Source: Magnetovibrio sp.
Lineage (GTDB): Bacteria > Pseudomonadota > Alphaproteobacteria > Rhodospirillales > Magnetovibrionaceae
Assembly (NCBI GenBank): GCA_028281525.1
Contig: JANQJR010000057.1
Coordinates: 1-64,000 of the forward strand
DNA length: 64,000 bases
Direction of reading: 5' to 3'
Below the pieces are notes generated by a model. It saw nothing but the letters and a program-made list of their open reading frames with translations, made no database searches and was not told where the DNA came from. The first letter of the stretch is position 1. The number at the start of each line of letters is the position of its first letter. The position numbers and the translations under genes are program-made. Shown one piece after another: positions 5,574 to 46,580 of this stretch.

Positions 5574-7388
5574 TCAAGCGGGCATCTTCATGGACAGGGT
5601 GAATTTCACCCCGCGTCCGCCCGGTCCCGGATCGACCATCATCTGACCGTCGACAAACCGCGCCACCGCGTTGGCGGCGGCCAGAAGCCCGTTGCCGGTG
5701 CCGTTCTCACGGGTCGTGAGCGCCGGATCATACTTGCGCGATTGCAAGACCTTGCGCACTTGCGACAGCTTTTCCTCGCTCATCCCCGGTCCGTCGTCCG
5801 TGACGTGCATGCACAGATGATCGCCCCTTCGCATGGCGCCCAAAAAAACCTTCTTTGCACCCTGGAGGAACGCATTGCGCACCAGTTCTTCGAACGCGTC
5901 TTCCATTTCGCCGGGCTGGGCGCTGAAGACGGTGCCCTCCACGCCGTCACAGGAAACCTCCACCTCGCCGCCCGCCTCCTGGCCGATGAGCTTGGCGCCT
6001 GCAACCCATTGGGCCACCGATTCCTGGACCTGCTTGTAGCCCCGCCGCCCGGTTTGCGCCACGATTTCCAAATCCTTGAAGCGGGTTTCGATCTTTGATC
6101 GGGTTTCGAAAAGGGCCGCCTGCACCTGATCGACGTCGGCGCGGGTCTTGACCACATACAGAACCTGGAGGTGCAAGAGCAAATTCTTGATGCCGTGAAA
6201 CATCCCGCGTACATCGACGCCCTGGTTGGTGCCAGGCAGCAACATCGCCTGCCATCCCCCATAAAGGCCCGGGCGCCCCCAAGCCTCGACATTTTGGCCG
6301 TTCACGGCGAACAGACCCAACGCGGGCTCGGTGCTGAGGTTGGAAAAGAATTCGGTCGCTGTGCGCATGGAGTTACCCTCCACCCCGATGGCGCGGACAA
6401 AATCTTCCACGTTGGTGAATTGCGTTTCCGCCGCCGGGCCGTTCAACGCAAAAATGCGCCCCTCCGCCGGGGATACGATCATGATGCTGGCCGCGTTGCG
6501 CACGAACGTGAGCGCATGATGCAGTTGCTCCGCAAGTTCGGCGACGATCGCAGGCTTGCCGTCAACGGTGCACAGCACTTCGCTGTGCAATTCATGCCAA
6601 TCGTTCACCGGCGCGCTGTGCACACCGATCACCGGGCGCAAAGCCGGGTCGAGAACGCGGGGTTGCCAATGGGCGATATCGTGACGGCTTTCGAACTCCA
6701 ACAGCATCTTCACCATACGCTCCGTCACGGCGGTGACGCGTGCGCTCAGATCCTGCGCCAAGGCCGCTATCTCCCCATCGTCCTGCAGCCCGAACAGGGT
6801 GTCCAGACCGGACAAGACATCCTGCAATTGCTGCCGTGTCCCTGCCCCGCTCTCTAGCCGGGCATCCAGGTCCGAGAGCAGGGTCTTGGCCATGGCGCGG
6901 GTGCGGTCCGAGGTTTCCTGAAACGCGGTGATATCCATCAAGGTGAATTGCACTTGGTGATCGTTGGGTTTCTGGCGTTTGCGCAGCACTAGGCGGAAAA
7001 ACCGGTCCCCCGCCCCCTTCAAGGGTTTCAAGATCGTCATGGCCGTGCCTGGGTTCAGGGCATCGGCGTCCTCCGCCACCTGGGCGAAATCTTCGCCCGC
7101 GATGCCGAAGCAGGAAAACAGCTGCATGAAGGTGGTCAGTTTGCCGGATGCGCCGGTGCGCGAATCCCCCTGGTACGGCTCCAAAACGTCATGGAATTCC
7201 GCACCGCCGGCGGTCCACTCCAAAAGTCCGTAATGGATATCCACCACCCCGAACAACGGCCGGGCATTGGTCACATGGGTCAGACACGCCAGCAAAAAGT
7301 CCGCCACATCCCAGGCTTCCTGAGGGCCCACGGGACGGTCCAGGATATCTTCCAGCTTATAGGCGGGTGGTGGATTGGTCTTCGTCAC
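5574..7388 (-). CDS. Soluble sensor histidine kinase-like protein (C-terminal HATPase domain)
   Basis: C-terminal DDGPGMSEEKL...ENGTGNGLLAAANAV ATPase motifs and a HGIKNLLLHLQ H-box-like segment; GTG start with GAGGGGACC upstream. No obvious TM segments. Confidence 0.75.
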   Translation of the reverse strand: MTKTNPPPAYKLEDILDRPVGPQEAWDVADFLLACLTHVTNARPLFGVVDIHYGLLEWTAGGAEFHDVLEPYQGDSRTGASGKLTTFMQLFSCFGIAGEDFAQVAEDADALNPGTAMTILKPLKGAGDRFFRLVLRKRQKPNDHQVQFTLMDITAFQETSDRTRAMAKTLLSDLDARLESGAGTRQQLQDVLSGLDTLFGLQDDGEIAALAQDLSARVTAVTERMVKMLLEFESRHDIAHWQPRVLDPALRPVIGVHSAPVNDWHELHSEVLCTVDGKPAIVAELAEQLHHALTFVRNAASIMIVSPAEGRIFALNGPAAETQFTNVEDFVRAIGVEGNSMRTATEFFSNLSTEPALGLFAVNGQNVEAWGRPGLYGGWQAMLLPGTNQGVDVRGMFHGIKNLLLHLQVLYVVKTRADVDQVQAALFETRSKIETRFKDLEIVAQTGRRGYKQVQESVAQWVAGAKLIGQEAGGEVEVSCDGVEGTVFSAQPGEMEDAFEELVRNAFLQGAKKVFLGAMRRGDHLCMHVTDDGPGMSEEKLSQVRKVLQSRKYDPALTTRENGTGNGLLAAANAVARFVDGQMMVDPGPGGRGVKFTLSMKMPA

Positions 7389-7556
7389 GGTCCCCTCGCG
7401 GCGGCGCTATCCCTATCAAAGATATGGCATTCCAATGTACATTGGACAACCCAGAGCGCCACCAAAACAGCCAACATCATAATTGGAATGTTCATTCCAG
7501 AATATGATATTTTTTTGACGTTCCGAATCCCCCCAAAAACGTGTAAAAGCCCCTCC

Positions 7557-8720
7557 ATGAAGCTTATTACAAAGACCCCCGACCTCGTCAAATTCTGCAA
7601 TTCCCTGAAAGGCGAAACCTTCGTCACCGTGGACACAGAGTTCATGCGGGAGAACACCTATTGGCCGCAGCTTTGCCTGGTGCAAGTGGCGGGCGCGGAT
7701 CAAGCCGCCGCCATCGACGCGTTGGCGCCGGGTATCGACCTGGCGCCGCTGTTCGACCTGATGGACGCGCCGGAAACCTTGAAGGTTTTCCACGCCGCGC
7801 GCCAGGATCTGGAAATTTTCCATCACCTCATGGGCCATGTCCCCCAGCCCCTTTTCGACACCCAAGTGGCGGCGATGGTCTGCGGTTTCGGCGATCAGGT
7901 GGGATACGAAAACCTGATTTCCAAGCTGACCAAGGCGCGCATCGACAAATCGTCGCGTTTCACCGACTGGTCGCGCCGCCCCCTGTCCGAAAAGCAAATC
8001 GCCTATGCGCTGTCCGATGTCACGCACCTGCGCGACGCATACCGCACGCTCGCCAAGCAATTGGACCAAAATGGCCGCGAAACGTGGCTGGATTCGGAAA
8101 TGGCCCTGCTCAAGTCTCCCAGCACTTATGAAGGCGACCCCGACCAGGCCTTCAAACGCATCAAGGCGCGCAACATCAAGCCCCGCGTGACGGCGTTGCT
8201 GAAAGAACTGGCGGCTTGGCGCGAACGCGAAGCGCAACGGCGCGACGTACCGCGCAATCGTGTCCTGCGCGACGATGCGTTGATGGAAATCGCCCACCAC
8301 GCCCCCAAGACGCCGGGCGATCTGGCGCGCACCCGCGGTCTGGGCGAGCGCATGGCCAAGGGACCGGGTGGCAAAGAAATCCTCAAGGCCGTTGAGCGCG
8401 GTCTTGCCGTGCCTGATGACCAACTGCCCCGCACACCGAAAAAACCGGACCTGCCTCAAGGAATCGGCCCGGTGGCGGATTTGCTCAAGGTCTTTTTGAA
8501 AATGATCTGCGAACAAACCGGCGTGGCGCAAAAGCTGATCGCCAACGCCGCCGATATCGACCAGATCGCCGCCTTTGGACAAGACGCCAATGTCGAGGCC
8601 ATGAAGGGTTGGCGCTACGAGCTGTTCGGTGAAGCGGCGGTGAAGCTGCGCAACGGTGAAATGGGCTTGGCGATCAAAAACAAGAAGGTCGTGCTGCTCG
8701 ACAATCCCAATGGGGACTAA
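7557..8720 (+). CDS. rnd: Ribonuclease D
   Basis: FVTVDTEFMRENTYWPQLCLVQVA DEDD exonuclease motif plus HRDC-like C-terminus; ATG at 7557. Confidence 0.95.
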   Translation: MKLITKTPDLVKFCNSLKGETFVTVDTEFMRENTYWPQLCLVQVAGADQAAAIDALAPGIDLAPLFDLMDAPETLKVFHAARQDLEIFHHLMGHVPQPLFDTQVAAMVCGFGDQVGYENLISKLTKARIDKSSRFTDWSRRPLSEKQIAYALSDVTHLRDAYRTLAKQLDQNGRETWLDSEMALLKSPSTYEGDPDQAFKRIKARNIKPRVTALLKELAAWREREAQRRDVPRNRVLRDDALMEIAHHAPKTPGDLARTRGLGERMAKGPGGKEILKAVERGLAVPDDQLPRTPKKPDLPQGIGPVADLLKVFLKMICEQTGVAQKLIANAADIDQIAAFGQDANVEAMKGWRYELFGEAAVKLRNGEMGLAIKNKKVVLLDNPNGD

Positions 8721-42494: not shown

Positions 42495-43553
42495 ATGAAC
42501 GAAAACCCCGAACTCCCGAATTTCAAGGTCGCGGACGCCTCTCCGGACGCCGCCAGCGAAGGCGGCGATATCCTACGCGCGGGCGGGCTGGTGGCGTTTC
42601 CCACCGAAACCGTCTACGGACTGGGCGCGGACGCGACCAACGACAAGGCCGTGGCCAGCATCTTCGACATCAAGGAGCGGCCCGAATTCAATCCCCTTAT
42701 CGTGCATGTGAAAGACGAATTCAAGGCCGCCGAACTGGTGGAGTTCAATGAAACCGCCCAGAAACTCGCCCACGCCTTCTGGCCCGGCGCGCTGACCTTG
42801 GTGCTCAAACGCAAGGACGGCTGCCCACTTTCGTTGCTGGCCACCGCCGGGCTGGATACGGTTGCTGTACGTGTACCCGCGCATCCCGTCGCCCAGGCCT
42901 TGCTGCACGCCGCAAACGTCCCCATCGCCGCACCCAGCGCGAATAAATCCGGCTACATCAGTCCCACCCAGGCGGTGCACGTGCTGATGCAATTCAAGGA
43001 CGGCCAGGGCCTGAACATGATCATCGACGGCGGCGCGTGTCCCGTCGGCGTGGAAAGCACCATCATCGACGTAACCGGCAGCACACCCAAGTTGTTGCGC
43101 CCGGGCGGCGTGGCGCTGGAAGACATCGAAGCGACGGTGGGCCCGGTCGAAATCGCCGAGGAATCGAGGGATACGGATGAGAACGCACCCGTCAATGCGC
43201 CGGGGCAACTTAAAAGCCACTATGCGCCGTCGATCCCGCTGCGCATCAACGTCGATCCCAAAGACCGCCAGCGTGGCGAAAGCATGCTGACCTTCGGCCC
43301 CGACATGCCCAAACGCGCGGCCATCAACCTGTCCAAAACGGGCGATCTGAAAGAAGCGGCGGCGAACCTGTTCACCATGATGCGTTCCTTGGACATGCCC
43401 GGCATCCGCGGCATCGCCGTGGCGCCGATCCCGGATGAGGGCCTGGGCCGCGCCATCAACGACCGGCTGCGCCGCGCGGCCGCGCCCAAGGACGGTGAAA
43501 ACACGAATGGTCCACCCAAGGCCTTCGATCCCATCGCCAATATCGAAATTTAA
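42495..43553 (+). CDS. L-threonylcarbamoyladenylate synthase (Sua5/YwlC/TsaC)
   Basis: GGLVAFPTETVYGLGADATNDKAVASIFDIKERPEFNPLIVHV; C-terminal Sua5 domain. Confidence 0.95.
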   Translation: MNENPELPNFKVADASPDAASEGGDILRAGGLVAFPTETVYGLGADATNDKAVASIFDIKERPEFNPLIVHVKDEFKAAELVEFNETAQKLAHAFWPGALTLVLKRKDGCPLSLLATAGLDTVAVRVPAHPVAQALLHAANVPIAAPSANKSGYISPTQAVHVLMQFKDGQGLNMIIDGGACPVGVESTIIDVTGSTPKLLRPGGVALEDIEATVGPVEIAEESRDTDENAPVNAPGQLKSHYAPSIPLRINVDPKDRQRGESMLTFGPDMPKRAAINLSKTGDLKEAAANLFTMMRSLDMPGIRGIAVAPIPDEGLGRAINDRLRRAAAPKDGENTNGPPKAFDPIANIEI

Positions 43554-43559
43554 GTCCTC

Positions 43560-43735
43560 CACCTCCGTCATGGCGAGCGCAGCGAAGCCATCCAGAACCC
43601 AGATCGCCGCGCGGGCTCATGCCCGCTCGCAATGATGCTTCTTTGACTTCTCCTATCCAATCCCCCTTCATCGTCATTCCCGTACCCGCCTGCGCGGGCA
43701 CAGGCTCCAGCGGGAACATGACACCTACCCCCACG
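43560..43735. repeat. Intergenic palindromic repeat cluster (left side of AT-rich islet)
   Basis: CGTCATGGCGAGCGCAGCGAAGCCATCCAG... and CGTCATTCCCGTACCCGCCTGCGCGGGCACAGGCTCCAGCGGGAACATGAC. Confidence 0.75.
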
Positions 43736-43779
43736 CCGTGACGGCCATAGGCTCCCGCCTACACGGGCGCGACACCACT

Positions 43780-43836
43780 ATATACAATGTAGAAATACGC
43801 CTTGACCGCCCTGCCTCAAAATATACAATGTAGAAA
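43780..43836. promoter_or_regulatory. Two exact direct copies of ATATACAATGTAGAAA upstream of padR-like gene (candidate PadR operators)
   Basis: Copies at 43780-43795 and 43821-43836, each containing the palindrome TACA-A-TGTA. Confidence 0.7.
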
Positions 43837-43860
43837 CTAGTAGCAGATTCGGAAAGACCG

Positions 43861-44211
43861 ATGGGCAAAGACGGCTACCTGGGCGAGTTCGAGATGAAAG
43901 TCATGATGGCGCTGATCCGCCTGGGCTCCAATGCCTACGGCATGACCATCCGCCGCGACATTTCCGAACGCACCGGCCGCGACGTGTCCATCGGCGCGAT
44001 CTACGCCACCTTGGACCGGATGGAGCGCAAAGGCTACGTGTCGTCGCACAAAGGCGAAGCCACGCCGGAACGCGGCCACCGCGCCAAGCGCTATTTCAAG
44101 ATCGAAGCTCCCGGCAAACGCATCTACGCAGACTCCTGGAATGCGCTGGACAACATGCGCGAAGGCTTAGATGACGGCCTCGTCACCACCTTCGAACCGG
44201 TGGGGGTGTGA
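43861..44211 (+). CDS. PadR family transcriptional regulator
   Basis: LGEFEMKVMMALIRLGSNAYGMTIRRDISERTGRDVSIGAIYATLDRMERKGYVSSHKGEATPERGHRAKRYFKIEAPGKR. Confidence 0.93.
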   Translation: MGKDGYLGEFEMKVMMALIRLGSNAYGMTIRRDISERTGRDVSIGAIYATLDRMERKGYVSSHKGEATPERGHRAKRYFKIEAPGKRIYADSWNALDNMREGLDDGLVTTFEPVGV

Positions 44212-44212
44212 G

Positions 44213-44866
44213 ATGGCTGCACAATCCCCATTTAAAAATTCTCAATCGTTCGCAATCAGAGCACAACAACGCAATTTACTCTCTTATATCGAAAGTTTTG
44301 ACCTACTTATTAAAGATGCCAGGGTCGAACAAAACTCAGACTCGTATGAAATACATATAATTGATGTAATCACGCCTATTGGAACTGAGTACAGAGTGCG
44401 CCTTAGCAATAAGCCTGGACACAGATTCAATTTTTATGACTTTCGCACACAATTACAAAATGAGAATCAGTATACGCTTCCATTTGACGCACCCTCACGT
44501 GAAGTTTCTAACGCTAACGCGTCACATAAAGCTAACACCACCACAAAACATGACGAAGAAAAACAAGTAGGTGATGAATATTCACATAAACACACGAACA
44601 ACAACATAAAAAATGAAAAATGCAATTGCGAAGCACCAAAAAATGCAAAGTTAATTTTGACATTCCTTTTACCTAGAAAAAATAGAGATTATATACTAGG
44701 TGATCTAGATGAGGATTTTTTACATAATATTATTCCAGATTATGGTGAGAAAATTGCTAAACGCTGGTATTGGTTTCAAACGATCCGCACGATCCTTGAA
44801 CACAACAGCCTAACCGCTCGAATCATCAATATCATCGACGCGTTCAAGAAGAGCAACGGGTCGTAA
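44213..44866 (+). CDS. Uncharacterised AT-rich-encoded protein with permease-prefix-like C-terminal motif
   Basis: ATG at 44213, 1 nt after the padR stop; C-terminal LILTFLLPRKNRDYILGDLDEDFLHNIIPDYGEKIAKRWYWFQTIRTI; visibly AT-rich relative to flanks. Confidence 0.7.
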   Translation: MAAQSPFKNSQSFAIRAQQRNLLSYIESFDLLIKDARVEQNSDSYEIHIIDVITPIGTEYRVRLSNKPGHRFNFYDFRTQLQNENQYTLPFDAPSREVSNANASHKANTTTKHDEEKQVGDEYSHKHTNNNIKNEKCNCEAPKNAKLILTFLLPRKNRDYILGDLDEDFLHNIIPDYGEKIAKRWYWFQTIRTILEHNSLTARIINIIDAFKKSNGS

Positions 44867-44892
44867 TCTCTTTTTGTCGCCCCTGAACCCTC

Positions 44893-45110
44893 CATTGTCA
44901 TGGCCGGACGTGTTCCGGCCATCCACGACTTTGGGGCGTGGCACATTAAGTAAGACGTGGATGCGCGGGACAAGCCCGCGCATGACGGATAAAAATTTCC
45001 GCTACCCCGGCACAGGCCGGGGCCTATGAGCGTTTCAGCTAAAAGCAGTGAAAGTTATGGATTCCCGCCGGAGCCTGTGCCTGCGCAGGCGGGTGCGGGG
45101 GTGACGATAT
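44893..45110. repeat. Intergenic palindromic repeat cluster (right side of AT-rich islet)
   Basis: GTCATGGCCGGACGTGTTCCGGCCATCCACG; CGTGGATGCGCGGGACAAGCCCGCGCATGACGG; GATTCCCGCCGGAGCCTGTGCCTGCGCAGGCGGGTGCGGGGGTGACG. Confidence 0.78.
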
Positions 45111-45161
45111 TTTGTGGTCCGGCTTTTGTCCCCTCCCCGCCCCGTGCTAAGGTCCGCGGCC

Positions 45162-46580
45162 ATGAGCGATGCATTGATCCAGGACCTGAAAGCCGCTTTG
45201 GGCGAACGCGCCGTGCTCACGGACGCGGGCGATCTGGCCCCGGTGCTGGAGGAACAGCGCGGCCTTTACCGGGGCGCGTCCCCCGCCCTGGTCAAACCGG
45301 CGAGCACGGCGGACGTCGCCGAAACGGTCAAAATTTGCGCGGCGCACGATGTCGCCATCGTACCCCAAGGCGGCAACACCGGACTGGTCGGCGGCGGTGT
45401 GCCGGACGGTGGTGTGGTCTTGTCCCTGGAACGCATGAACACTGTGCTCTCCGTTGATCCCGTCAACCTCACCATGGAGGTCGAGGCCGGTGCAATCCTC
45501 GCCACCATCCAAGATGCGGCGCAAGAGGCCGGTGCATATTTTCCCTTGAGCCTCGGCGCGGAAGGCAGCTGTCGCATCGGCGGAAATCTGTCCACCAACG
45601 CCGGCGGCGTGCACGTGGTGCGCTACGGCAACGCCCGCGATCTAGTGTTGGGCCTGGAAGTGGTGCTGGCCGACGGAAGGGTGTGGGACGGGATGCGCGC
45701 GCTGCGCAAGGACAACACCGGGTATGATCTGAAATCGCTGTTTTTGGGCGCGGAAGGGACGCTCGGCATCATCACCCGCGCGGTGTTGCGCCTCTATCCG
45801 AAACTGCAGAGCAAAACAGTGGCTCTGGCGGGCTGCGGATCGTTCGACCAGGCATTGGAGCTGTTCCACATGGCCCGCACGCGTGCGGGCGACGTGTTGA
45901 TGGCCTGCGAGGCGATGAGCGGCTTCGCGCTCAGTCTTGCGGAAAAACATGTGGAAGGCGTGGCGAGCCCCCTGGAAGGGCGGCACGAGGTTTATGTACT
46001 CTTGGAATTCGGCTCAACGGACCCCAATGCGGATCTGCCCGCGCTGATGGAAGCGGCGCTGACGGATGCATATGAGGCCACAGTGATCGAAGACGCGGTG
46101 ATTGCGCACAGCGGGGCTCAATCCGAGGCCATCTGGAAAATCCGCGAAACCATCCCCGAAGCGCAGAAAAAGGAAGGGGGCTCCATCAAACACGACGTTG
46201 CCGTGCCGGTCTCCCAAACCCCGGAGTTTATCGCACGCGCCAACGCATTGGTGGCGGACCTGATCCCCGGGGTGCGCCCCGTGGCGTTCGGGCATTTGGG
46301 CGACGGCAATATCCATTTCAACCTCACACAGCCCGAAGGCACTGATAAAAAAGAGTTTTTAGACCACTGGCACGCGATGAACGAAAAAATCCACGATCTG
46401 GCGGCGTCCATGGGCGGCAGTTTTTCCGCCGAGCACGGCATCGGCCAACTTAAAACCGGCGAAATGGCGCGCCTCAAGTCCGGAACCGAGTTGGATTTGA
46501 TGCGCGCCGTGAAAACCGCCCTGGATCCGGAAAACCGTCTCAACCCGGGTAAGGTTATCCCGCCCAAAGACGCTTCATAG
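45162..46580 (+). CDS. FAD-binding oxidoreductase (GlcD / D-2-hydroxyglutarate dehydrogenase-like)
   Basis: IVPQGGNTGLVGGGVPDGGVVLSLERMN; GGNLSTNAGGVHVVRYGNARDLVLGLEVVLADG; SAEHGIGQLK. Confidence 0.92.
   Translation: MSDALIQDLKAALGERAVLTDAGDLAPVLEEQRGLYRGASPALVKPASTADVAETVKICAAHDVAIVPQGGNTGLVGGGVPDGGVVLSLERMNTVLSVDPVNLTMEVEAGAILATIQDAAQEAGAYFPLSLGAEGSCRIGGNLSTNAGGVHVVRYGNARDLVLGLEVVLADGRVWDGMRALRKDNTGYDLKSLFLGAEGTLGIITRAVLRLYPKLQSKTVALAGCGSFDQALELFHMARTRAGDVLMACEAMSGFALSLAEKHVEGVASPLEGRHEVYVLLEFGSTDPNADLPALMEAALTDAYEATVIEDAVIAHSGAQSEAIWKIRETIPEAQKKEGGSIKHDVAVPVSQTPEFIARANALVADLIPGVRPVAFGHLGDGNIHFNLTQPEGTDKKEFLDHWHAMNEKIHDLAASMGGSFSAEHGIGQLKTGEMARLKSGTELDLMRAVKTALDPENRLNPGKVIPPKDAS

Follow-up and report, generated by a model that had tools for sequence, protein, structure and literature searches.

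PadR repressors working together with a partner protein have been described in Bacteria. The HAAS–PadR dyad, which includes the DUF1700, DUF1129 and DUF1048 families, has been proposed as an alternative to two-component systems in which a signal is passed to PadR (PMC11237479). HAAS is a small helical domain that is always found beside a stand-alone PadR and is fused to diverse transmembrane or intracellular modules, including FtsX/MacB (PMC11237479). In Listeria, mutation of the PadR encoded in a padR–DUF1700 operon leads to strong derepression of that operon (PMC6624303). Here we have analyzed a 64,000-nucleotide stretch of Magnetovibrio sp. DNA (the window), in which a padR gene is followed by a gene for a protein ending in a domain that databases call permease prefix domain 2 (prefix-2), a term ('permease prefix') for which no use was found in the literature searched. 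The pair adds a new variant to the architectures of PadR-linked prefix proteins, and three aspects are new: an operator common to part of the loci, the conservation of PadR and of the domain next to unrelated N-termini, and a probably recent insertion.

The padR gene (43861..44211, + strand, as are all features of the pair given below) encodes a short winged-helix repressor of 116 aa that matches Pfam PF03551 at 41.8 bits against a cut-off of 27, and its profile also matches PadR crystal structures such as 1xma. As had been pointed out in the earlier note, the second gene begins 1 nt after the padR stop (TGA at 44209-44211, ATG at 44213); its start codon is preceded by GGTGGGGG, a plausible ribosome site. 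In a PadR tree the window protein is closest (60%) to the PadR of a Kiloniellaceae locus, L047, where the partner likewise has the stand-alone layout, that is, no permease; the forks of the tree that bear on a single or repeated origin of the stand-alone form are poorly resolved.

The partner ORF (44213..44866) is an open frame of 217 aa. At its composition, a frame of 217 codons would stay open by chance with a probability of about 4e-7, and the other five frames contain 7-29 stops. Residues 1-85 (44213..44467) form an N-terminal region with low-confidence helices, for which no relative was found. It is followed by a low-complexity linker, residues 86-139 (44468..44629), predicted to be disordered, with pLDDT values that stay mostly under 50 as far as residue 120, and then by the domain itself, residues 140-196 (44630..44800), and a C-terminal tail helix modeled by AlphaFold at residues 201-216 (44813..44860). 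The earlier note had seen a resemblance of the C-terminus to the permease prefix motif, with the proviso that the motif might not align to that domain; both of our profile comparisons do align it. NCBIfam NF038404 (perm_prefix_2) matches with 27.7-30.2 bits (E 2.4e-6 to 4e-7), a score below the curated cut-off of 35 bits, which is exceeded by four stand-alone relatives, and in hhalign residues 140-196 align to 23 MacB/FtsX-type permease prefixes with 98.8% probability (E 1.1e-16). Judged by sequence, these residues are permease prefix domain 2. For the domain, AlphaFold gives a confident model of three helices and a less certain tail helix (pLDDT 86 overall and ~95 over the domain, pTM 0.69). 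Elsewhere in the window protein confidence is low, and the middle is largely disordered. The domain has no significant Foldseek match of any kind in the PDB, nor any sequence match to solved structures. No Pfam domain, including MacB_PCD and FtsX, was found in the ORF, and its translation contains no transmembrane segment; a permease is absent both from the ORF and from the DNA directly downstream, in agreement with the initial description.

How general is this pairing? Profile scanning of 84,980 species genomes for the prefix-2 domain alone returned 66 loci, which belong to six or more phyla, and in 66/66 padR lies immediately upstream on the same strand, whether the domain belongs to a MacB/FtsX fusion, a small transmembrane fusion or a stand-alone protein. 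At about 32 loci, three of them cut by contig ends, the domain forms the N-terminus of MacB/FtsX-like proteins of 750-1000 aa; Pfam domains were checked in one of these (L046), which carries MacB_PCD and FtsX. At about 28 loci it forms the N-terminus of proteins of 130-260 aa with 2-4 predicted transmembrane segments. These small multi-membrane-spanning proteins, found in Alteromonas, Pseudoalteromonas and others (L063, L065, L076 and relatives), are a second non-ABC form of 'permease prefix' proteins, and one of them, L041 (5487-6218), shows weak similarity to MotA/PomA. At the remaining six loci of the scan the domain is C-terminal. The same layout had emerged from a first search of related genomes, where a short prefix protein was found behind PadR in G043; G116, G295, G358, G387, G406, G673 and G690 came from searches by family and by profile. 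In all eight genomes the domain is C-terminal in a protein of 150-265 aa. Taken together, the scan loci, the genome-search finds and G1025 amount to 14 stand-alone cases, window included, from Alpha- and Gammaproteobacteria and one Acidobacteriota, each with an unrelated N-terminal region and a C-terminal domain, whereas the permeases carry the domain N-terminally. The suggestion that the window protein is a stand-alone PadR partner rather than a transporter is thereby supported, as a search for permease-free, PadR-linked proteins with this C-terminus yields 13 besides the window. The word 'soluble' is not valid for all of them, since the N-terminal region of L045 has two predicted transmembrane segments. 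Within the family of G043 and G387, which comprises 48 genomes here, searching for padR and searching for the prefix domain lead to the same 3 genomes. Two domain matches lack an adjacent padR, namely L037 (5700-6254), a prefix-like domain protein close to a serine-recombinase-like gene, and L040, where a contig end cuts off the upstream side. Four weak matches (L038, L039, L042 and L043) overlap other genes or contain stops and are apparently due to chance. Querying genome contigs with the window partner as a single protein gave no match because the partner protein diverges too fast, and plasmid, phage and viral collections contained no relatives.

The N-terminal regions of the 14 stand-alone proteins show no mutual relationship by BLAST or phmmer. 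Some are coiled-coil-like by eye, L031 has a zinc-ribbon-like segment, and tandem repeats occur in L033 (5428-6219; about six copies of the SFASQARAILENQN type) and L054 (227-1012; KNALGSMAAFKAVADS type). In a Methylomonadaceae pair, L057 and L115, whose modules sit at different genomic places, the PadR proteins are 81% identical and the domain plus tail 65%, with pN of 0.24 and pS of 0.92, a ratio that is only qualitative since pS is saturated. The N-terminal regions of the same two proteins align at 22% with no detectable homology and with pN > pS. Qualitatively, then, the prefix domain appears to be under purifying selection in this pair. G043 and G387 represent two genera of one family; in both, the module sits next to dnaJ at the same position, the flanks are conserved and the partner gene is open. 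The flanks and padR align as DNA, but the partner gene does not.

In the window, the module lies within a stretch (43554..45161) between sua5 (42495-43553) and a gene for a FAD-linked oxidase (ATG at 45162). The site is empty in the congeners G002 and G005, where the sua5 stop and the oxidase ATG are 3-4 nt apart, whereas G003 has two other genes beside sua5 and G004 a transposase-like sequence, their identities being read from sequence; among six congeners, the insertion was found only in the window's species. Therefore, the module is most likely a recent insertion at a spot that has been used repeatedly. Palindromic repeats are interspersed on both flanks of the module (43560-43800 and 44889-45100; GTCATGGCGAGCGCAGCGAAGCC and CATGGCCGGACGTGTTCCGGCCATCCAC), and a copy of the second repeat follows sua5 in G004. 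No other 650 bp of the window are as AT-rich as the partner ORF, whose GC content is 0.37, compared with 0.62 in padR and 0.59 in the window overall. More generally, stand-alone partners average 13 GC points below their surroundings, unlike the permease and transmembrane forms (Mann-Whitney p 1e-6), which is consistent with recent transfer. At L036, a TIR-like candidate defence protein (6783-7691; PADLOC PDC-S35) is encoded directly 5′ of the stand-alone module; for the loci in general, a defence-island setting was not supported by an uncontrolled scan of 96 neighbouring ORFs.

Upstream of the window padR, a 16-nt direct repeat (ATATACAATGTAGAAA) holds ATACAATGTAG twice, one mismatch away from the palindrome CTACAWTGTAG. 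The first copy is predicted operator 1 (43782..43792); the second, predicted operator 2 (43823..43833), encloses the −10 hexamer (43824-43829) of a predicted sigma-70 promoter (43802..43829; TTGACC, 16 nt, TACAAT; 10/12 matches). The palindrome recurs 5′ of padR in members of Methylomonas, Alteromonas, Pseudoalteromonas, Marinicaulis, Kiloniellaceae and Acidobacteriota, and in all three layouts. Its core, TACAWTGTA, was counted 14 times in the 250-nt stretches upstream of padR (0.87/kb) versus once elsewhere in the same loci (0.0022/kb), and is thus about 400-fold denser 5′ of padR. An operator is present at 12 of the 65 padR genes of the scan set, so CTACAWTGTAG would serve a subgroup of these systems; as the four sites in Pseudoalteromonas are almost copies of one another, the independent cases number about nine. 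From its position over the −10 box, autorepression of padR can be straightforwardly inferred. An exact TACAWTGTAG-type site outside the padR upstream region, at L054 (1975-1985), is a possible second target. In the literature searched, the operator string occurs as letters in four papers, none of whose titles points to a PadR operator.

We consider it fairly probable that the locus is a mobile, autoregulated PadR–partner signalling dyad in which the prefix-2 domain is constant and the N-terminal region variable. PadR would bind CTACAWTGTAG-type operators, one of them over its own −10 box, and repress the padR–partner operon; the prefix-2 domain would bind PadR and alter its hold on DNA; and the N-terminal region may supply the input (a ligand, a protein or a membrane state) or carry the output. 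A signal, a direction of effect on PadR and any targets beyond the operon itself are likewise presumed. This reading is favored because padR linkage holds at all 66 loci regardless of the fusion partner, because padR and prefix-domain searches single out the same genomes, because the domain has profile identity with permease prefixes, because PadR and the domain are kept in L057 and L115 next to N-terminal regions without homology, and because the enriched operator core overlaps the window promoter; the HAAS–PadR (PMC11237479) and Listeria padR–DUF1700 (PMC6624303) systems offer precedents for the mechanism. Several points count against it: unrelated N-terminal regions could mean weak constraint rather than sensing, the fold of the window N-terminal region is of low confidence, the operator is found at only 12/65 padR genes, and L037 and L040 lack padR.

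The sporadic, mobile and AT-rich character of the module and its unrelated N-terminal regions would also fit a toxin–antitoxin-like or anti-phage unit in which PadR silences a rapidly diversifying effector, and two loci do adjoin PADLOC candidate defence genes. We regard this as unlikely, however: the pair itself has no PADLOC match, most genes around the 14 loci are of a housekeeping kind (dnaK-dnaJ and metabolic genes, for instance), and the stable part of the partner is the domain that it has in common with permeases. Since the domain is fused to permeases or transmembrane proteins at most loci, it could also be that the partner is a detached prefix domain which assembles in trans with a MacB-like permease or channel encoded elsewhere, PadR providing expression control only. 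Yet the seven genomes with the stand-alone layout that were searched have one prefix-2 domain each and no prefix-2-bearing permease in trans, the operon lacks a permease, and the constant neighbour is PadR rather than a transporter, all of which makes such assembly quite improbable. That the ORF is a decayed remnant of a PadR-linked permease or small transmembrane protein, open by chance, the pseudogene reading that the earlier note had named as a refutation, would fit the low GC, fast divergence, patchy distribution and, among six congeners, confinement to the window's species. This reading is strongly contradicted, and very improbable: the domain is C-terminal and preceded by a long additional N-terminal region, opposite to the arrangement in permeases; the next gene is only ~290 nt away from the ORF; intact cases number 14 and come from several classes; the domain is under purifying selection in one pair; and the gene is kept open at a conserved dnaJ site in another.

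Returning to the signalling dyad, the recurring pairing suggests that the domain belongs to repressor signalling rather than to transport. More tentatively, and with slightly less than even confidence, we propose that 'permease prefix domain 2' is misnamed: distinct from HAAS, it would serve PadR repressors generally as a partner domain, as anti-repressor or co-repressor, and plug interchangeable input or output modules into one repressor–operator pair, its stand-alone form with fast-changing modules spreading as a mobile, self-regulated one-step signalling unit. Because databases name the domain after transporters, stand-alone members wrongly receive a transporter annotation. Among the versions of this widespread PadR-linked architecture, the soluble pair is the smallest. 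Its predicted operator and its domain of 57 residues make it possible to test in vitro, without membrane proteins, by what route signals from a partner gene reach PadR.

Compared with known systems, the window pair has in common with the PadR-linked MacB/FtsX-like permeases (NF038404) the domain, the immediate padR linkage and a related PadR, the operator being present at 1/30 of them, but its domain is C-terminal and without a membrane domain, whereas theirs is N-terminal. With the PadR-linked prefix-2 proteins of 2-4 transmembrane segments, one of them MotA/PomA-like, it shares the domain and the upstream padR (operator at 8/29); these differ in being membrane proteins with an N-terminal domain. 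The Listeria LltR operon (padR, a DUF1700 protein and a DUF4097 protein; PMC6624303) has the same order of padR and partner gene and strong autorepression, although its partner is a multi-spanning membrane protein (PMC6624303). Membership of prefix-2 in HAAS is not supported: PF22564 has no match in the window protein and, of the 23 permease prefixes, matched only three, the best with E 0.015; a protein that clearly belongs to HAAS gave 0.3-1.4% in hhalign; and the GxP motif is absent from the prefix-2 consensus. The HAAS fold has three helices with a kinked third, as in 2O3L; for prefix-2 three helices are confidently predicted, with no significant Foldseek match in the PDB. Since the sequence tests do not place it there, we file the pair as HAAS–PadR-like and not as a member. 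Like HAAS, prefix-2 always adjoins a stand-alone PadR at the scanned loci and is fused to diverse modules, and the best reading, by analogy, is that the padR–partner pair would work in the way of a HAAS–PadR dyad.
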